The notes under the pieces were generated by a model. The model worked only from the letters and a program-made list of their open reading frames with translations. It made no database searches and was not told the DNA's origin. Shown here in pieces: positions 5,818-13,585 of a stretch of DNA of 64,000 nt (position 1 is its first letter; each line of letters begins with the position of its first letter). Origin of the DNA: Parascardovia denticolens DSM 10105 = JCM 12538 (lineage in GTDB: Bacteria > Actinomycetota > Actinomycetes > Actinomycetales > Bifidobacteriaceae); NCBI RefSeq assembly GCF_001042675.1, contig NZ_AP012333.1:1736001-1800000 (forward strand). Reading direction: 5' to 3'. Both the position numbers and the translations under genes were made by a program.

Positions 5818-7894
5818 ACAGACGCACCCCTTGAGCCAGACAGAACGGCCGGGCCGAGCGAAGCAAAAAGAAACGAAACGAACGACCATGAAAGACGCAA
5901 AGAAAGACAAACCGAGGAAGGGGACCACATCCCACCTCCTCTCCTACATCTTCGCCTACAAATGGCAGATGATCGTGGTGGTGCTCTGCATCATCATCTC
6001 CGCCGCGGCCAACGCGGCCATGGGCTTCTTCCTGCAGACCCTGATCGACTCCTACATCATGCCCCAAGTGGGCAAGTCCCATCCTGATTTCCTCCCCCTG
6101 GCCCAAGGACTGGGAGTGCTGGCCATCGTCTTCACCGCCGGGGTCATCGCCACCCTGACCTACAACCGGATCCTGGTCAAGGTGGAACAAGGGGTGCTCA
6201 AGACCATTAGGGACGACATGTTCGCCCACCAACAGACCCTGCCGATCAAGTATTTCGACACCCATCTGCATGGGGACGTCATGAGCTTCTACACCAACGA
6301 CACCGACGCCCTGCGCCAGGCCATCTCCCAGAGCCTGCCCCAGATGTTCTCTTCGATCATGAGCGTCATCGCCGCCTTCGTGGCCATGCTGCTCATCTCC
6401 GTCCCCCTGGCCTTCTTCGTCCTGGCTTTCGCCCTCCTGCTGATCGTCGTCATCCAACGCCTGACTTCCGCCTCCGGCCGCTACTTCGTCCGCCAACAGA
6501 AAGAGCTGGGCGACGTGAACGGCTTCATCGAAGAGGCCATCAATGGCCAGAAGGTGATCAAGGTCTTCACCCATGAGGATGCCACCCAGAAAACCTTCGA
6601 CCAGAAGAACGACGACCTTTACCAGGCCTCCTCCCAGGCCAACTACTTCGGCAACATCACCATGCCTGTCGTCGGTAACATGGGCTATCTCCTGTATGTG
6701 CTCGTCGCCATCGTCGGGGCCGGGGCCGTTTTGGGCGGCTTCCGCAACGTCAGCCTGACCGGGTCGGCGGCCCTCACCCTGGGCGGAATCGTCTCCTTCC
6801 TCACCCTCTCCCGCAGCTTCATCAACCCGATCGGGCAGATCTCCAACCAGTTCGCCTTCGTCATGATGGCCTTGGCCGGCGCCTCCCGCATCTTCGACTT
6901 CCTGGACCAGGCGCCCGAAACCAATTCCGGCACAGTGACCCTGATCAAGGCCCATGTGGCCGAAGACGGAACCATCACCCAGGCCGCCCATCACACCGAT
7001 AAGTGGGCCTGGCGGGTTCCGGCCAACGTCCAAATCGAAAAGGGCGTGGGCGCAGTGACCAAGACCGGGGCGACCACCCGCCTGGCAGGATGGAGAGCCG
7101 CATCCGTGGCCGCCTTGGCCGGCAAGACCTCCCGGACGGCCGCCGGGGCCTATACCCTGCTCAGGGGCGACATCCGCTTCAAAGACGTCAACTTCTCTTA
7201 TGAGCGCGGGCATCAGATCCTCCATGACATCTCCCTCTACGCCAAGCCGGGTCAGAAAGTGGCACTGGTGGGCGCGACCGGAGCCGGCAAGACCACGATC
7301 ACCAACCTGATCAACCGTTTCTACGACATCGACAGCGGGTCCATCCTCTATGACGGGATCAACATCCGCGACATCAACAAGAAGGACCTGCGCCAGTCCC
7401 TGGGCATCGTCCTGCAGGATGTGAACCTCTTCACCGGCACTGTTATGGATAACATCCGCTATGGCAAGTTGGACGCCACGGATGACGAATGCATCTCCGC
7501 CGCCAAGCTGGCCAACGCCGACGGCTTCATCCGCATGCTCCCCCACGGTTATGACACCGTCCTTCAAGGCGACGGATCCGGCCTGTCCCAAGGCCAGCGC
7601 CAGCTGATCTCCATCGCCCGCGCGACCGTGGCCGACCCCCCGGTCATGATCCTGGACGAGGCCACTTCCTCCATCGATACCCGCACCGAGCAAATCGTCC
7701 AAGCCGGCATGGACGCCCTCATGGAAGGCCGCACGGTCTTCGTGATTGCCCACCGCCTGTCCACCATCCGCAACTCCGATGTGATCATGGTCATGGACCA
7801 CGGCCGCATCATCGAGCGCGGCACACACGACCAGCTGCTGGAACAGAAGGGCGAGTATTACCAGCTCTATACCGGGGCCTTCGAGCTGGAGTGA
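5807..7894 (+). CDS. ABC exporter half-transporter with canonical ATP site (subunit B)
   Basis: 695-aa partner of the preceding gene. Membrane domain about 50-360, nucleotide-binding domain about 465-690. Walker A GATGAGKTT (about 488), signature LSQGQRQ (about 593), Walker B MILDEATSSID (about 615) and switch His in VIAHRLS (about 648) are all canonical. An extra segment of roughly 70 residues (about 380-460, Ala/Thr-rich) separates the membrane and nucleotide-binding domains, as in LmrD-type subunits. The start at 5807 overlaps the upstream stop by 11 bp and has GGAGG 9 nt upstream; a later in-frame ATG at 5888 has no good site. The two form one efflux pump, with substrate unknown. Confidence 0.9.
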   Translation: MTSEQTHPLSQTERPGRAKQKETKRTTMKDAKKDKPRKGTTSHLLSYIFAYKWQMIVVVLCIIISAAANAAMGFFLQTLIDSYIMPQVGKSHPDFLPLAQGLGVLAIVFTAGVIATLTYNRILVKVEQGVLKTIRDDMFAHQQTLPIKYFDTHLHGDVMSFYTNDTDALRQAISQSLPQMFSSIMSVIAAFVAMLLISVPLAFFVLAFALLLIVVIQRLTSASGRYFVRQQKELGDVNGFIEEAINGQKVIKVFTHEDATQKTFDQKNDDLYQASSQANYFGNITMPVVGNMGYLLYVLVAIVGAGAVLGGFRNVSLTGSAALTLGGIVSFLTLSRSFINPIGQISNQFAFVMMALAGASRIFDFLDQAPETNSGTVTLIKAHVAEDGTITQAAHHTDKWAWRVPANVQIEKGVGAVTKTGATTRLAGWRAASVAALAGKTSRTAAGAYTLLRGDIRFKDVNFSYERGHQILHDISLYAKPGQKVALVGATGAGKTTITNLINRFYDIDSGSILYDGINIRDINKKDLRQSLGIVLQDVNLFTGTVMDNIRYGKLDATDDECISAAKLANADGFIRMLPHGYDTVLQGDGSGLSQGQRQLISIARATVADPPVMILDEATSSIDTRTEQIVQAGMDALMEGRTVFVIAHRLSTIRNSDVIMVMDHGRIIERGTHDQLLEQKGEYYQLYTGAFELE

Positions 7895-8319
7895 TTCAAA
7901 GCGACCGCACGGCACCGGCGCTTCCACTCTCACCATGCATGCGATGCGAAGGCTGTCTGATTTTGTGAAAAAGAGCTGTCGTCGGACTCGCTTGCGCGGA
8001 CCATTCAGCGCTTATCCCTGCGAGCCAGCGCTGAAGCTCATGCAACATCCACATCCCTGATGTCGGACTGAGCTTCTCGAACGATCTGCGCTTGACAGGG
8101 AGAACTTTTTAACCGGTTGACAATAGATTGACAATGGCCGATTGACAACGTGGTATCACGCGGGCATGGGCTCATCGGCGTCCTTCATACGGAAGATAAT
8201 TCTCAGGGCAATCCTCGCCTGCCTCGTGCGGCCCAACTGCGGACAGCAGGAATGGCTTATGCATTCCCCGGTTCTCATCGAGGCACATAGAACCAGGTTA
8301 TACAGCAAGTCCATATTTT
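7895..8319. other. Non-coding spacer with four TTGACA boxes
   Basis: About 500 bp separate the exporter operon from the RiPP cassette. No coding frame is supported. TTGACA occurs at 8092, 8117, 8128 and 8142, the last three as TTGACAA, so this is a short array of -35-like boxes or a repeated protein-binding site. A dyad CAGCGCT/AGCGCTG lies around 8007-8034. Composition falls from GC-rich to AT-rich across the region. Confidence 0.55.
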
Positions 8320-8358
8320 GAGAGAACTCTCGACATATTCTCGCTAATATTCTACTAT
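8320..8358 (+). promoter_or_regulatory. Promoter and operator-like dyad of the RiPP cassette
   Basis: TCGACA (8330-8335), 17 nt, then TACTAT (8353-8358) gives a plausible sigma-70-type promoter about 35 nt before the precursor's ribosome site. The dyad GAGAG-AA-CTCTC (8320-8331) overlaps the -35 box and could be an operator. Confidence 0.5.
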
Positions 8359-8399
8359 TAGAATTGCAAGTTTATTCACCCGATAATAAGGAGGTGAAA

Positions 8400-8564
8400 A
8401 TGCAAACGGCGATTGCAACTGCAGCAGCTGAAACGCTACAAAGTGCGGTCGAAATCAATAACCTTGATTTCGATGCTCTTGAGGAAGAGTTCCTTCAAGA
8501 CTCCGATTATCTCTTCGAGGATCATTTCTCTCATTGTAGCTGTAGCTCACAGCGAGATGACTAG
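8400..8564 (+). CDS. Candidate RiPP precursor peptide (Cys-containing core)
   Basis: 54-residue peptide with a helical, acidic leader (about 1-41, including the stretch DFDALEEEFLQDSDYLFED) and a short polar C-terminal core with two closely spaced cysteines (HFSHCSCSSQRDD). AAGGAGG is 5 nt before the ATG at 8400; a longer in-frame start at 8364 has no such site. Ten bases separate it from the 237-aa gene, and a radical SAM/SPASM enzyme and an ABC exporter follow in the same direction. This layout and the leader/core form match ribosomally made, radical-SAM-modified peptides (sactipeptide, ranthipeptide or related). The family is not recognised and the cross-link type is unknown. Confidence 0.7.
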   Translation: MQTAIATAAAETLQSAVEINNLDFDALEEEFLQDSDYLFEDHFSHCSCSSQRDD

Positions 8565-8573
8565 GAATTCGCT

Positions 8574-9287
8574 ATGCAAGAATTTCGAAAGACGGAAGCG
8601 CCGCTTTACCTTTCCAATGCGGTTTCGATTGTCAGTTTAAACACTTTTAAGCAGCAGTATTCGTTGACCAATCGACTCGTCAATTGTTGTAAAATCGTGT
8701 TTGGCTCACTGCTAGATCAGCAAAGATGTCTCAATGTCGGCGTTCCGTTTTTCTTCCGCTCTACTGAAGAAGAGAAAAGGTTCTATCGCTTTTATTTCAA
8801 AAATAACTTTGCATCTGTCAGATCTCCTTTCTTGGCCGTGCCCAATAGCTCTGTTTTAAATAAGACGATTCAACAATTTTCTCAGTCTCGTATTCTTAGC
8901 AGAATATGTATAACTATTCGAAATGCCGACTCAATACCTCAAAGCTATCAAACTCTGTATTCTGATAAAGTTACAGTTATTTTCAATACCGATATAATCA
9001 AACCTGATACAGTGCTAGAGGCGATGGGCCATCATGCGCAAACTGGTGCGACCATCATGCTGTCCGACACCCCCATGAGCCAAGTTCAGCCTTATTTTAG
9101 AGATATATGGCGAGCTCTTCATCTACACAAACCTTTATACTTCCAAAAAAACAGCTTGACCGCGCAAGGGTTGAACATCGCTCTTAAAGCGCCCATGCTT
9201 GCAAATTCTTTAACTGCAAGCATAGCAGAAATTTGGTATAAGCAGCTATTTAATAATCTGAAGGTTATTAATTCTAGTTACGCATAA
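8574..9287 (+). CDS. Unknown RiPP-cassette protein
   Basis: 237-aa soluble-looking protein that I do not recognise. No transmembrane segment or signal peptide is evident. It has Cys at NRLVNCCK (about residues 38-39), QQRC and SRIC, with no metal-binding spacing. The second half (VIFNTDIIKPDTVLEAMGHH, then a helical tail) looks like an alpha/beta fold. It is AT-rich like its neighbours and lies between the precursor and the maturase, with 10-bp and 24-bp gaps, so it is very likely part of the maturation system (leader recognition, protease or partner protein). A link to the 'peptide maturation system' proteins found beside clostridial Cys-rich peptide maturases is conceivable but unverified. 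Confidence 0.6.
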   Translation: MQEFRKTEAPLYLSNAVSIVSLNTFKQQYSLTNRLVNCCKIVFGSLLDQQRCLNVGVPFFFRSTEEEKRFYRFYFKNNFASVRSPFLAVPNSSVLNKTIQQFSQSRILSRICITIRNADSIPQSYQTLYSDKVTVIFNTDIIKPDTVLEAMGHHAQTGATIMLSDTPMSQVQPYFRDIWRALHLHKPLYFQKNSLTAQGLNIALKAPMLANSLTASIAEIWYKQLFNNLKVINSSYA

Positions 9288-9311
9288 GGAGAAAGACAGG
9301 AGGAAAGCAAT

Positions 9312-10583
9312 ATGGTAAGGAAAATGCTGACATTCCGCTTAAACAAGTACACTGATGTATTTGAAGCTGATGATGAACTTATCCTATATAGCTACATTAC
9401 CAAAAAGCATATTTCAATCAAAAAAGACCAGCTTGACGGAAACGTTATAACTATCCCAGACCAAGACGTCAAACACTACCTTGGCACGCATATCATCGAA
9501 AATCAAACGATTGGTTCTTACGAAGAGTACCAAGTTCTGCGTGATATGGCTCGCTATTCTCACAGCCTACTTGACGTTATTCTTCATCTCAACTATGACT
9601 GTAATCTCCGGTGCCCATATTGTTATCAAAATAATGTTGACAAAAATGCGATTATGACTGAAGAGACCATAAATAAAGTTTGTGAACAAATCGTCTTTCT
9701 CATTGCTCAAGGGCAGTATCACGAATTATCACTTACGCTCATAGGCGGGGAGCCTACACTTCATCCGCGGATTGTACATGAAGTTTCAGACAAGCTGAGC
9801 AGTTTATCCTGTCCAATTAGTGGAATTGTCGTTTGCAATGGTACTTCTTTATCGGACCAATTAATTGAGGATTGTCGAAGGCTAGGCTCTTTCACTTTTG
9901 ATATCACTCTTGACGGAGCTCAGGATTATCACGATCAGTTGCGCTTCTACCCTAATGGACAAGGCTCTTACCATGAAATCATGAGCAATATCAGATACAT
10001 TCAAAACAAATACCCCAACGAAAAAATCACCATAAACTGCAATCTATCTAAAAAAAATATCTCTGGAATCAAAGGACTTTGCGACGATTTGCAGAGTTTC
10101 CATTTCAATGGGCGGCTGATATTTAGTGAAGTCTTTTCATCGCCGCATAGCTCATACGAAGAGATTTTAAATCGGCGAAATTCAGAATGGTATGAAGCAA
10201 TCAAAATTGCCGAGAGATATGGCTTTGTAAATGATGCGTTCCTACGTACATCTCACTTAGGCTGTGGAATGTACCACTCAGACGCTTACTTTATCGATCC
10301 CTTCGGTCAGCTCTTCTCATGTATCAATGCGATTGGAAATTCAGCTTTTCGGCAGACTTCTTTCACAAACTACGAAGAGGCTTCGTTCGATTTTGCCCGT
10401 AGCCAAAGAATAGAGAGCGACGGGCTTCTTACAAAGCACTGTCGAGATTGCAAGTTCCTTCCTGTCTGCGAGGGAGGATGCACCTATCTCAATGAAGAAG
10501 TGCAAAAGTGGTGCCCCCGCTGGTCTTTTGAACACAATGAGAGAAGAGTATTAAAAGAGCACCTTCTGGAAGGAGTCGAATGA
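9312..10583 (+). CDS. Radical SAM/SPASM peptide maturase
   Basis: 423-aa radical SAM enzyme. The cluster-binding CxxxCxxC is at Cys97, Cys101 and Cys104 (CNLRCPYCYQ), and the SAM-binding GGEP motif follows (LIGGEPTLHP, about 145). The C-terminal SPASM domain has the full seven-cysteine pattern for two auxiliary 4Fe-4S clusters: Cys of LGCGMYH, 13 residues, Gly, 4 residues, Cys of FSC, then CxxCx5CxxxC (HCRDCKFLPVCEGGC) and a last Cys in KWC. Residues 1-90 may hold leader-recognition structure. GGAGG lies 8 nt before the ATG. SPASM enzymes of this type typically install thioether or C-C cross-links on peptides; the upstream 54-aa peptide is the obvious substrate. Confidence 0.88.
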   Translation: MVRKMLTFRLNKYTDVFEADDELILYSYITKKHISIKKDQLDGNVITIPDQDVKHYLGTHIIENQTIGSYEEYQVLRDMARYSHSLLDVILHLNYDCNLRCPYCYQNNVDKNAIMTEETINKVCEQIVFLIAQGQYHELSLTLIGGEPTLHPRIVHEVSDKLSSLSCPISGIVVCNGTSLSDQLIEDCRRLGSFTFDITLDGAQDYHDQLRFYPNGQGSYHEIMSNIRYIQNKYPNEKITINCNLSKKNISGIKGLCDDLQSFHFNGRLIFSEVFSSPHSSYEEILNRRNSEWYEAIKIAERYGFVNDAFLRTSHLGCGMYHSDAYFIDPFGQLFSCINAIGNSAFRQTSFTNYEEASFDFARSQRIESDGLLTKHCRDCKFLPVCEGGCTYLNEEVQKWCPRWSFEHNERRVLKEHLLEGVE

Positions 10584-11449
10584 TGCCGGAAGGATCCGAA
10601 AATGATATGCCGCCCGCCGCACCGATCCTCCTGACCGATCAGGTGAGCAGGGATTTTCACGGAAAACCTGCGGTGAGCAATCTGTCCATCGCCGTCAGAC
10701 CCGGTCGCATCATGGGCCTGCTGGGGCCCAACGGGGCTGGCAAAAGCACCACTTTACGCATGATGTGCGGCCTCCTGCAGCCCACCAGCGGTCAGATCCT
10801 CTTCCATGACCGGCCTTTGGATTCATGGCGGAACTCCCTCTACGAACATCTGTCTTGTGTGCTGGAGGACTCTTCCCTGGCCTACATGTTCCTGACCGGC
10901 TGGGATAACCTCGCTTATCAGGGAGGCCTGTACGGCTACGGGCGCAAGGAGACCTTCGAACGCTGCCGGGAGCTCATGGATTCCCTGAAGCTGACCGAGC
11001 ATATGGATAAGCCGGTGGGCGACTGGTCCCGCGGCACCCAGCAAAAGCTGGCCTTGGTCACCGGCATGATCCCCCGGCCAGAAGCCCTCATCCTCGATGA
11101 ACCCACTTTAGGCCTGGACGTGGTCTCCAAACGCGACTTCCTCCAGGCGATCACGGCCCTCTCCCGGCAGGGGACAGGCATCATCATCGCCACCCATCAG
11201 TCGGAAGTGGTGGATGCGGTGGCCGATGACATCACTCTGATCCACCATGGCCGCACCCAATGGGCCGGCACCTATCCCGACTTCATCCGCGTCCATAGCC
11301 GGCGGTTGACCGGTCGGGATGACGCCTCCATGGACTTGGAGCACATTCTTCTGGAACTCTTCACCGTGGATGACGAAGACCAGGGGAATCCGATAGGATC
11401 GGTCGAAGCAGGCAAGCCGGGGAAAGCGGCAGAAGGAGAAGAACGATGA
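10580..11449 (+). CDS. ABC transporter ATP-binding protein (probable peptide export)
   Basis: 289-aa ATPase. Walker A GPNGAGKST (about 50), a variant signature WSRGTQQK (about 149), Walker B ALILDEPTLGLD (about 170) and switch His in IIATHQS. It is the DrrA/CcmA-like type that works with ABC-2 permeases. The start codon overlaps the maturase stop (ATGA), with AAGGAG 5 nt upstream, so it is translationally coupled to the RiPP operon. Composition returns to GC-rich at this gene, unlike the three genes before it. Likely roles are export of the mature peptide or self-immunity. Confidence 0.87.
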   Translation: MMPEGSENDMPPAAPILLTDQVSRDFHGKPAVSNLSIAVRPGRIMGLLGPNGAGKSTTLRMMCGLLQPTSGQILFHDRPLDSWRNSLYEHLSCVLEDSSLAYMFLTGWDNLAYQGGLYGYGRKETFERCRELMDSLKLTEHMDKPVGDWSRGTQQKLALVTGMIPRPEALILDEPTLGLDVVSKRDFLQAITALSRQGTGIIIATHQSEVVDAVADDITLIHHGRTQWAGTYPDFIRVHSRRLTGRDDASMDLEHILLELFTVDDEDQGNPIGSVEAGKPGKAAEGEER

Positions 11450-12327
11450 ATATGACAGAGGATCTCCAGGGTTCCCAAACGTCCCCGGCGTCTCAAGCTT
11501 CCCATGGTTCGCGCCGACCAGGCCAGCCCGGCCTGCCGCATCCGTCCCCCGGTCCGCGCCGACCGTCCCATTTGCGCAAATTCAGCATCCTCCTGATCGC
11601 CGAACTGCATCGCTACGTTTTGGAGCTGCGCCGGTATCTGAGCAATTACATATCGGACCTGATCCTCACCGGAATCCTGGTGGCCATGATGGCCATGGCC
11701 ACCAACGTCCGGAAGAATCCCACCGCCTGGCTGGGCTACTTCCTGTGGACGGCTTCGACCTTCCTCATCGAAGAAGGCAGCCTGTCCATCTCCACCGACA
11801 AACAGAACGGCACGTTCACCCAACTGATGCTCAGACCCACCTCCCTCTTCACCCAGGTTCTGGTCAAGACCCTCACCTGGAGTCTCATCTCCATCGCCAT
11901 CAACGCCATTTTCATCGTAGGGCTTTTTGCCGTCATGCGTATACCTATGGTCATGAACCTGACAAGCCTGGGCCTGTGTCTGATCATGTTCGCAGGGCTT
12001 TTCGGCTTTACCCTGATTTTCGTCTCCCTGACCGTGGTCTATACCCGCACCCAGGCTTACTCCACCCTTTTCGGCTATGTGCTCATGTTGGTCTCCGGCG
12101 TCGTGGTGCCTTTGTCTTCCCTGCCGCCGGCCCTGATTTGGATGGGCCGGATCCTGCCTCTGCAATACGGGATCCAGCTGATTCAGCAATCCTGGACCAG
12201 GCCTGTCACCCTTTTCCAATGGGCGGCGGCCGGCGGCCAGAGTCTGGTTTACCTGGCCATCGGCTACCTCCTTTTCCGCCTCATCCTCAAACATGGCAGG
12301 AAGAACGGCATCAATATGCGCTACTGA
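11446..12327 (+). CDS. ABC-2 type permease
   Basis: 293-aa membrane protein with six predicted hydrophobic segments after a Pro/Ser-rich, cytoplasmic N-terminus of about 45 residues. It belongs to the ABC-2 permease family (segments at LILTGILVAMMAM, then VSLTVVYTRT and VSGVVVPLSSLPPAL). Its ATG overlaps the stop of the ATPase gene by 4 bp, so the two form one transporter. It is the last gene of the RiPP transcript; the convergent glycerate kinase follows. No terminator hairpin is evident, only a direct repeat GAGGATCCCGCT near 12350-12372. Confidence 0.85.
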   Translation: MNMTEDLQGSQTSPASQASHGSRRPGQPGLPHPSPGPRRPSHLRKFSILLIAELHRYVLELRRYLSNYISDLILTGILVAMMAMATNVRKNPTAWLGYFLWTASTFLIEEGSLSISTDKQNGTFTQLMLRPTSLFTQVLVKTLTWSLISIAINAIFIVGLFAVMRIPMVMNLTSLGLCLIMFAGLFGFTLIFVSLTVVYTRTQAYSTLFGYVLMLVSGVVVPLSSLPPALIWMGRILPLQYGIQLIQQSWTRPVTLFQWAAAGGQSLVYLAIGYLLFRLILKHGRKNGINMRY

Positions 12328-12430
12328 TTCAGTGCGCCACTGATTCCGGAGGATCCCGCTGAGGATCCCGCTTATCCTGGTCCGGTGGTCCGGTATGGAC
12401 GGCAACGGCAAGAGTCAGACTCCGCCCCGC

Positions 12431-13585
12431 CTAAGAGGTCATGCCGCACCGGGCCTTGACGACCAGGCGGGCCACGTTCTCGGCTGTCCGGGACAGGTTG
12501 ACGCCGGCACCGGCGATGGCGTCCTGCATGGTCGCCACCCCGGGCATGATGCCGAAGATGGCGTCTATGCCAAGTCCATAAAGCTGGTTGATTCCCTGAC
12601 CCACGTTGCCAGCGATGGCGACCACAGTGCAATCGGGGGTCACCTCCTTCACGGCTTGGGCCGTGCCCATGGGAGTCTTGCCGAACTGGGTCTGGTAGTC
12701 GATGCCGCCTTCACCCGTGATGCAGAGGGCCGCTCCGGCGGCCAGTTCTTTCAGATGGGTGGCTTCCACCACAATCTGAACTCCCGGCTGCATGCTGGCG
12801 TCGGTGAAGGCCAGGAAGCCCGCCCCCAGGCCGCCGGCGGCGCCGGCGCCGGGGACATCGCGGACGTCACGGCCCAGTTGGCTTTCAATCACTTTAGCGT
12901 AATGGATCAGGGCTTCGTCCAGTTTCTCCACCATGGCCGGGGTAGCCCCTTTCTGCGGGCCGAAGACCGCGGACGCTCCCCGCAGACCGGTCAAAGGGTT
13001 GGTCACATCCGAGGCCAAGCGAATGCGGACCTGCTCCAGTCGAGGATCCAGCTGGCTGCAGTCCACCTTGTCCAGTTTGAGCAGGGCCTCGCCCCCGTAA
13101 GGCAGCTCGTCCCCATTGATGTCCAGCAGTTGAACGCCCAAGGCTTGAGCCATGCCCGCTCCCCCATCATTGGTGGCGGAGCCGCCCAGCCCGACGATGA
13201 TCTCCTTGACCCCGTGGTCCAAGGCATCCTTGACCAGTTGCCCGGTTCCATAAGTCGTGGTGATCAGAGGGTTCCGGGTTTGCGCGTCCACGAACTGGAT
13301 ACCCGAGGCCGCGGCCATCTCAATGACGGCCGTGCTCCCATCACCCAGCAGACCATAAGCGGCTTCGGCCGGGCGACCTAGGGGATCCGTCACTTCGGCG
13401 GTGACGATTTGCCCGCCGGTGGCGTCAACCAAGGAACGGACGGTCCCTTCGCCTCCATCAGCCATAGGGACTTTGACCAGTTCCGCATCCGGAAGGATTT
13501 TACGGATGCCTTCCTCAATGGCATCGGCCGCTTCCTGAGCGGTCAGGCTTCCTTTGAAAGAGTCAGGTGCAATCACGATTTTCAT
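12431..13585 (-). CDS. glxK: Glycerate 2-kinase (GarK/GlxK family)
   Basis: 384-aa glycerate kinase family I enzyme that phosphorylates D-glycerate (to 2-phosphoglycerate in most characterised members). Family signatures are the start KIVIAPDSFKGSLTA, PMADGGEGT (about 42-50), the Gly-rich loop VGLGGSATNDGGAGMAQALG (about 141-160) and ALCITGEGGIDYQT (about 290). Length is normal. It lies 46 bp after the GntP-type permease gene and is co-transcribed with it, giving uptake plus phosphorylation of glycerate into glycolysis. Confidence 0.92.
   Translation of the reverse strand: MKIVIAPDSFKGSLTAQEAADAIEEGIRKILPDAELVKVPMADGGEGTVRSLVDATGGQIVTAEVTDPLGRPAEAAYGLLGDGSTAVIEMAAASGIQFVDAQTRNPLITTTYGTGQLVKDALDHGVKEIIVGLGGSATNDGGAGMAQALGVQLLDINGDELPYGGEALLKLDKVDCSQLDPRLEQVRIRLASDVTNPLTGLRGASAVFGPQKGATPAMVEKLDEALIHYAKVIESQLGRDVRDVPGAGAAGGLGAGFLAFTDASMQPGVQIVVEATHLKELAAGAALCITGEGGIDYQTQFGKTPMGTAQAVKEVTPDCTVVAIAGNVGQGINQLYGLGIDAIFGIMPGVATMQDAIAGAGVNLSRTAENVARLVVKARCGMTS

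Follow-up and report, generated by a model that had tools for sequence, protein, structure and literature searches.

A candidate radical SAM peptide-maturation cassette of Parascardovia denticolens with homologues in Lactobacillales

A window of 64,000 nucleotides from the genome of Parascardovia denticolens DSM 10105 (positions 1736001-1800000 of a 1.89-Mb contig; all cassette coordinates are window positions) carries five co-directional genes on the plus strand at 8400-12327 that, judging from sequence comparison, are a real and rare radical S-adenosylmethionine (SAM) cassette for a ribosomally synthesized and post-translationally modified peptide (RiPP), with homologues in Lactobacillales. 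The genes encode a 54-residue precursor peptide (8400-8564), a 237-residue protein of no recognised family (8574-9287), a 423-residue radical SAM/SPASM peptide maturase (9312-10583), and the ATP-binding (289 residues, 10580-11449) and ABC-2 type permease (293 residues, 11446-12327) subunits of an ATP-binding cassette (ABC) transporter. All five frames are open and run in one direction, as a preliminary description of this DNA had stated, and the gaps of 9 nt (precursor/237-residue gene) and 24 nt (237-residue gene/maturase gene), followed by two 4-nt overlaps, make one transcription unit likely. We assign a probability of about 0.6 to the reading in which the maturase links a core cysteine in a thioether, with removal of the leader and export or protection by the ABC pair; thioether formation at cysteine is the most likely chemistry that we infer for the enzyme.

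The maturase contains a radical SAM domain (PF04055, 54 bits) with the cluster-I motif C97xxxC101xxC104, and seven auxiliary cysteines at positions 318, 337, 377, 380, 386, 390 and 401. SPASM peptide maturases combine CxxxCxxC with CX9-15GX4C - CX2CX5CX3C - C, and the window enzyme has this arrangement (C318-X13-G332-X4-C337; C377-X2-C380-X5-C386-X3-C390; C401). All ten cysteines, correctly read as those of a SPASM-type maturase in the preliminary description, are invariant in a four-row alignment (A2) of the window protein with the maturases of three Lactobacillales loci, L086, L087 and L088. The presence of seven rather than eight auxiliary cysteines would agree with an auxiliary cluster that leaves a site unoccupied, by analogy with CteB, whose auxiliary cluster reportedly does so. 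In NCBIfam, 73 families matched at E ≤ 1, and among the best 25 listed the highest scores were those of CefB NF038107 (145 bits, cut-off 600), TIGR04463 'vs C-rich' (131 bits, cut-off 525), geopeptide TIGR04280 (123 bits, cut-off 400) and PapB NF047865 ranthipeptide (114 bits, cut-off 340), three of these four models (CefB, TIGR04463 and PapB) being named for Cys-rich or thioether peptides. The sulfatase maturase TIGR03942 (68 bits, cut-off 349), SCIFF TIGR03974 (68 bits, cut-off 425) and the cyclophane maturase models YhhB (64 bits) and FxsB (48 bits) scored lower. The closest solved structure is 5wgg/5why (E 1e-13 by sequence, 1.2e-20 with profile A2), with a match that extends through the SPASM region; 5wgg is, we assume, CteB, and the title of 5why speaks of thioether bond formation in sactipeptides.

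The relatives that define the cassette came from a search of 395 Lactobacillales genomes with the maturase, the order having been chosen from the Lactococcus genome behind locus L004. Sixteen genomes matched at E ≤ 1e-16, three of which stand out at 208, 204 and 189 bits, the next reaching 94. In a 38-row tree the maturases of these three and that of the window, 27-29% identical to them over the alignment, form one clade (support 100/99), which no other family or order maturase in the tree joins; ten duplicate or overlapping loci, frames below 300 residues and matches shorter than 150 residues or above E 1e-6 were excluded from the tree, and several weak family matches are thus not placed in it. 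Within the genus one of three genomes matched, its own, and within the family 21 of 189 did so at E ≤ 1e-3, its own included and alone in matching strongly, with the next best at 83 bits and 26% identity. Three of 396 genomes of the order matched at E ≤ 1e-18 (its own and two from a different clade), as did one of 396 of the phylum at E ≤ 1e-20 (again its own). One distant match (28%) came from a genome contig collection and 104 from plasmid records, the best 30 listed all lying below 27% identity, and viral contigs gave no match with the single maturase protein and six weak ones with the profile. With the L088 maturase as query, three plasmid records matched at E ≤ 1e-20 and 64 phage records at E ≤ 1e-5, the best among the matches listed scoring 113 bits. 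On each of two plasmids of Sarcina sp. JB2, p5 and p8 (L030 and L031; 11.5 and 10.0 kb), a transporter gene comes after one for a radical SAM protein, and no precursor was recognised among the small frames listed for them.

The three Lactobacillales cassettes (L086 in genome G1197, L087 in G1057 and L088 in G1122), none of which is named in the libraries searched, share their gene order and ABC-2 transporter family with the window, in addition to the maturase clade. L086 and L088 encode, in order, a precursor (41 or 46 residues) with a Cys/[ST]QR end, a Lon-type protein, a 246- or 229-residue protein, the maturase, the ABC ATPase and the permease; L087 has the Lon-type protein, the protein of about 230 residues, the maturase and the ABC pair in the same order, on a contig that begins within the Lon-type gene and so leaves the precursor region outside. 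The evidence for kinship among the three is pairwise BLAST, the recovery of these loci with profiles built from them being no proof: their maturases are 52-56% identical, their Lon-type proteins 45-51% (E 1e-18 to 1e-36) and their proteins of about 230 residues 25-27% (E 2e-9, 8e-9 and 1e-4). They differ from the window in having a stand-alone Lon-type protein of their own, between the precursor and the protein of about 230 residues, and basic leaders, whereas the window cassette lacks the Lon-type gene and has an acidic leader. In a scan that took in L088 and L086, their Lon-type proteins matched PF05362 (Lon_C) with 52 and 37 bits, respectively, against a gathering threshold of 21.1. The L088 protein keeps the Ser and Lys columns, which we take to be the Lon catalytic residues, in alignments to solved Lon domains, the Ser column being Ala in the best chain, 1rr9 (presumably an active-site mutant), and Ser in 1xhk. 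It also matches 51 plasmid records, the annotated ones among the 15 matches listed being Lon, and the Lon profile found three other matches of 16 bits or less. The L086 Lon-type frame ends early, at 123 residues after a T run, perhaps owing to a frameshift or a sequencing error.

In both Lactobacillales cassettes with upstream DNA, a perfect inverted repeat encloses the precursor gene from before the ribosome-binding site to past the stop codon: 14 bp with a loop of 154 nt in L086 (11390-11577, minus strand) and 15 bp with a loop of 169 nt in L088 (4307-4505, minus strand), with no equivalent in any of 200 single-base shuffles of either. Both stems appear in the predicted folds (z -4.5 in L086 and -3.3 in L088) and, as the two stem sequences are unlike while the pairing is the same, the pattern is that of a conserved stem, in two cases; such an RNA stem may shield the precursor transcript or control its abundance. 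The precursor region of the window has no exact inverted repeat of this kind of at least 9 bp, yet its predicted fold, with other pairing, is likewise more stable than those of shuffles (z -3.2), so that the z-score by itself says little. Its predicted fold includes a perfect 10-bp hairpin (TCGAAATCAA / TTGATTTCGA) at 8449-8473 on the plus strand, within the leader-coding part of the precursor gene.

The window precursor gene is preceded by a strong Shine-Dalgarno sequence, AAGGAGGTG, and its product ends in FSHCSCSSQRDD. Residues 1-43, the leader, hold 11 acidic residues and no Lys or Arg, in agreement with the acidic leader of the preliminary description, and the core has two cysteines, Cys46 and Cys48, in a C-x-C arrangement, with C48-X4-D53. 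Its core, HFSHCSCSSQR, may be set against EYSCCKKTQR and EFSCCKKTQR of the Lactobacillales precursors: the motif [FY]S.?C.{2,5}[ST]QR, which we composed after inspecting the sequences, is shared by all three precursors, and among 200,000 shuffles of the window peptide it turned up in 8. The likeness is limited to this C-terminal end, the leaders being acidic in the window and basic in Lactobacillales. Conservation of a small frame next to homologous maturases had been proposed as a check, and a small frame with the Cys/[ST]QR end indeed occupies the corresponding position in L086 and L088, the two cassettes with readable upstream DNA. It is position, ribosome-binding site, maturase homology and end motif, taken together, that lead us to assign this peptide as the precursor. 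No NCBIfam or Pfam model matched it at E ≤ 1, and no plasmid record did.

The 237-residue protein is the positional counterpart of the proteins of about 230 residues in the Lactobacillales cassettes. As the preliminary description had supposed, neither it nor the precursor falls into a family: no NCBIfam model matched at E ≤ 1 and none in Pfam exceeded its cut-off, the 237-residue protein having two sub-threshold Pfam matches. An identity as IspD was rejected (E 0.028, 14.6 of 27 bits). In two of 189 family genomes a match reached E ≤ 1e-3, in its own and at L027, where the apparent relative has three stops and overlies a longer kinase-like frame and is taken as chance; elsewhere the best plasmid match had E 0.5, the best PDB match E 1.2, and viral contigs gave none. 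An AlphaFold model made without relatives has a predicted local distance difference test score (pLDDT) of 38 and alternating strands and helices, and we rejected a degenerate radical SAM barrel, for which this weak model was the sole basis. Because the proteins of about 230 residues are only 25-27% identical where their maturases share 52-56%, and the window maturase shares 27-29% with those, a recognisable similarity of the 237-residue protein would not be expected. The one profile match between them covers residues 59-81 in each, a combination of score and colinearity that none of 200 shuffles equalled.

Among the relatives themselves, the L086 protein resembles, at its start, the N-terminal part of the model for CefB maturases (E 4.5e-4 over residues 5-87), the L087 and L088 proteins gave no match to a maturase N-terminus, and a comparison of the profile of these proteins with that of the maturases aligned the two N-termini (E 0.0095, probability 4.3%). 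Their three-row structural model has a mean pLDDT of 39, with 54-69 over the first 70 residues, which form three strands followed by helices; a fold comparison gave an unrelated protein as the top match and, among others, lasso B1 leader-binding proteins, 5why and SuiB, with no match below E 0.27. From these models and matches it is plausible that the proteins of about 230 residues start with a domain like the RiPP recognition element (RRE). In the window 237-residue protein nothing matched for an RRE/PqqD-like leader-binding domain.

The transporter genes encode a DrrA/lantibiotic-protection-like ATPase (PF00005, 94 bits) and a permease (PF01061, 44 bits). Separate ATPase and permease subunits recall the DrrAB and lantibiotic-protection transporters, but the ATPase scores 181 and 141 bits against TIGR01188 and TIGR03740, below their cut-offs of 312 and 310. 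A second copy in its own genome, 70% identical to it, lies between rplQ and truA as judged from frames, and an ATPase search scoring the 12 best candidates per genome found a match at E ≤ 1e-70 in 10 of 189 family genomes, its own included. The permease is homologous to the Lactobacillales cassette permeases (116-129 bits) and to stand-alone ones of the family (229-391 bits, its own second copy highest), and no further frame of at least 150 residues among the fetched loci matched it at 1e-3. Stand-alone ABC pairs lie beside truA, as judged from frames, in L042 (6980-8523 of G000:C1:1610001-1626000, its own genome) and in L055 (7496-9099, genome G002), and, in eight more genomes of the family, at different sites; it is possible that they are orphan immunity transporters. 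The nine ABC loci of other genomes gave no relative of the maturase (sought in all frames of at least 300 residues), of the 237-residue protein (all frames of at least 60) or of the precursor, the comparison having used the longest non-overlapping frames of at least 50 residues, so that a masked small precursor could escape it. We considered whether the pair is unrelated to the cassette, given that its relatives elsewhere in the family stand alone, and dropped the idea because the Lactobacillales cassettes carry the same transporter family. This family accompanies all four cassettes, and the window pair is most like the genus-native copies. The ABC pair, an exporter in the preliminary description, may serve immunity instead; both export and self-protection are possible.

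Base composition divides the cassette. The GC content at third codon positions (GC3) is 0.42 in the precursor gene, 0.40 in the 237-residue gene and 0.42 in the maturase gene, against 0.74 and 0.77 in the ABC genes and 0.74-0.87 in three flanking genes. The simplest reading of these values is that the AT-rich trio was acquired from outside, and the cassette would then pair a transporter resembling the genus-native one with probably imported genes. As proof of a chimera, the step in GC is weakened by L088, whose ABC genes (GC 0.38-0.40) likewise exceed the three biosynthetic genes that follow its precursor gene (0.26-0.30). In the sister species G001, the window sequence on either side of the block, ending at 7892 and resuming at 12538, aligns to adjoining stretches of L033 (7551 and 7317), and about 140 bp separates the same two flanking genes, the entire block being absent there; in G002 the flanking kinase gave no match. 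That the difference reflects insertion is deduced from this one sister genome and from the other 188 genomes of the family, none of which matches the maturase strongly.

A promoter-like site (TCGACA-17-TACTAT, 9/12 in a consensus scan) lies upstream of the precursor gene at 8330-8358 on the plus strand, and a second one (10/12) lies inside the 237-residue gene. Across 7900-12800 on both strands the scan returned 8 sites, against 4.7 +/- 2.2 in shuffles, and the single promoter of the preliminary description is not borne out. Further upstream, three TTGACAA boxes stand on the plus strand at 8117-8147 (starts 8117, 8128 and 8142), candidates for an operator or for -35 elements that overlap.

In the reading that we prefer, the 54-residue peptide would be made with its acidic leader, which an N-terminal RRE-like domain of the maturase would dock, perhaps aided by the 237-residue partner. 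The 5'-deoxyadenosyl radical generated at the radical SAM cluster would take a hydrogen from a carbon of the core, to which a core cysteine positioned near an auxiliary cluster would be linked as a thioether, for which the prediction is a mass change of the core of -2 Da. The leader would then be cut, in the Lactobacillales relatives by a Lon-type Ser/Lys peptidase dedicated to the task and in the window strain by a host protease, and the DrrAB-like ABC pair would export the product or protect the producer. Within this scheme we infer the docking of the leader, the role of the 237-residue protein, the identity of the protease, the direction and purpose of transport and the biological activity. 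To call the cassette a complete plan for a modified, exported peptide, as had been done, is too strong, for it encodes no leader peptidase although its relatives carry the Lon-type protein.

Several results weigh against this scheme. Local alignment of the window precursor with those of L086 and L088 is no better than with shuffles (1121 and 633 of 2000, respectively, reach the score), and the best alignment with the L088 precursor falls outside the core. The maturase lies below the cut-off of every one of the 25 NCBIfam models listed, sits on a long branch (1.61) that is flagged in the tree, and matches with profile A2 the structures of anaerobic sulfatase maturases (anSME) at 6e-15, third in the list. 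The 9-nt gap after the precursor leaves no Lon-type gene, and no other leader protease gene was found in the window cassette, while the 237-residue protein has no relation above background to the proteins of about 230 residues by profile or BLAST (BLAST E 0.94 or worse; 94 of 200 shuffles reach the profile score).

The first rival to thioether formation is that the maturase makes an aliphatic ether from the Ser/Thr side chain to the alpha carbon of the adjoining Gln in [ST]QR, as TqqB does for threoglucin, the cysteines serving otherwise. We consider this unlikely: [ST]Q is kept in all three precursors, but the TQQ motif itself is replaced by TQR or SQR, and three of the top four NCBIfam models belong to maturases of Cys-rich or thioether peptides. 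Another radical cross-link, for instance carbon-carbon at the core Phe or His, or an epimerisation, would draw on the aromatic residue that precedes Ser in all three precursors and on the many reactions that SPASM maturases catalyse; we place it behind the ether as a further unlikely candidate, the cyclophane models (YhhB 64, FxsB 48 bits) scoring under the best ones for Cys-containing peptides.

More improbable again is a decaying or non-functional import, in which the trio arrived without a Lon-type gene beside a copied native ABC pair. The absence of that gene, the unrecognisable 237-residue protein, the strong maturase match in its own genome alone among 189 of the family, and the contrast in GC3 between trio (0.40-0.42) and ABC pair (0.74-0.77) speak for it; against it stand five intact, tightly spaced frames, the full set of ten cluster cysteines and the strong site for ribosome binding, and since the proteins of about 230 residues diverge to 25-27%, the 237-residue partner of a 28%-identical maturase could be unrecognisable without decay. 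Least credible of all is a fortuitous 54-residue frame with an enzyme whose substrate is a protein, for instance a sulfatase. Membership of a clade of that kind had been named as grounds for refutation, as had a lack of the frame beside homologous maturases, and neither check refuted the RiPP reading. The sulfatase maturase model (68 bits) and the anSME structures (6e-15) lend themselves to the view of a protein substrate, but CefB (145 bits), TIGR04463, geopeptide and PapB models all score higher, and the small Cys/[ST]QR frame recurs at the same place in both readable cassettes.

Likeness of the window enzyme to CefB, TIGR04463, geopeptide and PapB maturases is that of radical SAM/SPASM peptide maturases in general, at scores far below their cut-offs. 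The precursor lacks the array of a Cys at every fifth residue that goes with CefB (145 against 600 bits). PapB-type ranthipeptides have a CX3D/E motif, whereas the window has C48-X4-D53, in the Lactobacillales cores Cys is followed by no acidic residue, and the enzyme scores 114 against 340 bits. Sactipeptides are marked by a thioether from Cys to an alpha carbon. CteB/SCIFF (5wgg, TIGR03974) is the closest solved relative, but at 68 against 425 bits and with two rather than six cysteines in the window precursor. The core motif of the radical SAM RiPP (RaS-RiPP) threoglucin, TQQ, gives way to SQR in the window and TQR in L086 and L088, and the anaerobic sulfatase maturase model TIGR03942 stays at 68 of 349 bits. 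Streptococcal RaS-RiPPs resemble the cassette in their short precursor, radical SAM maturase, proteolysis and export, and the accessible part of PMC13361665 describes 16 subfamilies with no TQR or SCC type among the motif names. Among the matches listed in open-access full texts for Lon, radical SAM and RiPP, no such cassette is described, and we provisionally regard it as undescribed. The available portion of PMC12710340 contains no mention of Lon, that of PMC12715929 brings up Lon domains in connection with anti-phage defence (BREX), and the window cassette is not among the RiPPs of bee-gut bacteria in the text available from PMC10673953.

A second radical SAM locus lies elsewhere in the same genome. 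L043 (G000:C1:998001-1012000, 6625-9818, minus strand) encodes an ABC exporter, a 27-residue peptide, MIKKLLGLLNIKIKPMRWDDKCGARHR, with a strong ribosome-binding site, and a 384-residue maturase (GC 0.40), which forms a clade with the maturases of L044 and L045 (100/99). L045 has a similar 26-residue peptide ending in RWDDKCPAYRR, and the L044 peptide is much looser. The three maturases fall below the cut-offs of the best 25 NCBIfam models listed for each, and the L043 peptide had no match at E ≤ 0.001; the loci are perhaps an ultra-short-precursor RiPP family.

We tentatively suggest, as a proposal that we hold to be doubtful at present, that the four cassettes represent a separate radical SAM RiPP class with an [FY]S-C...[ST]QR core, a maturase with a cluster-less leader-binding partner, and a free-standing Lon-type leader peptidase. 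In lactic-acid bacteria the 14-15 bp RNA stem around the precursor gene could raise its message above those of the enzymes, and the bifidobacterial version would have gained the trio, with the protease either lost or missing from the start, and have joined it to a duplicated native ABC transporter, of which the stand-alone copies in other family genomes may act as orphan immunity genes. If it is true that the Lon-type protein removes the leader, it would be a type of peptidase that goes unmentioned, as Lon or S16, in the accessible part of a review of RiPP leader proteases (PMC10885120). The cassette would add to the radical SAM RiPPs an apparently undescribed branch with a short core, present in two unrelated bacterial groups, the bifidobacterial family and the Lactobacillales.

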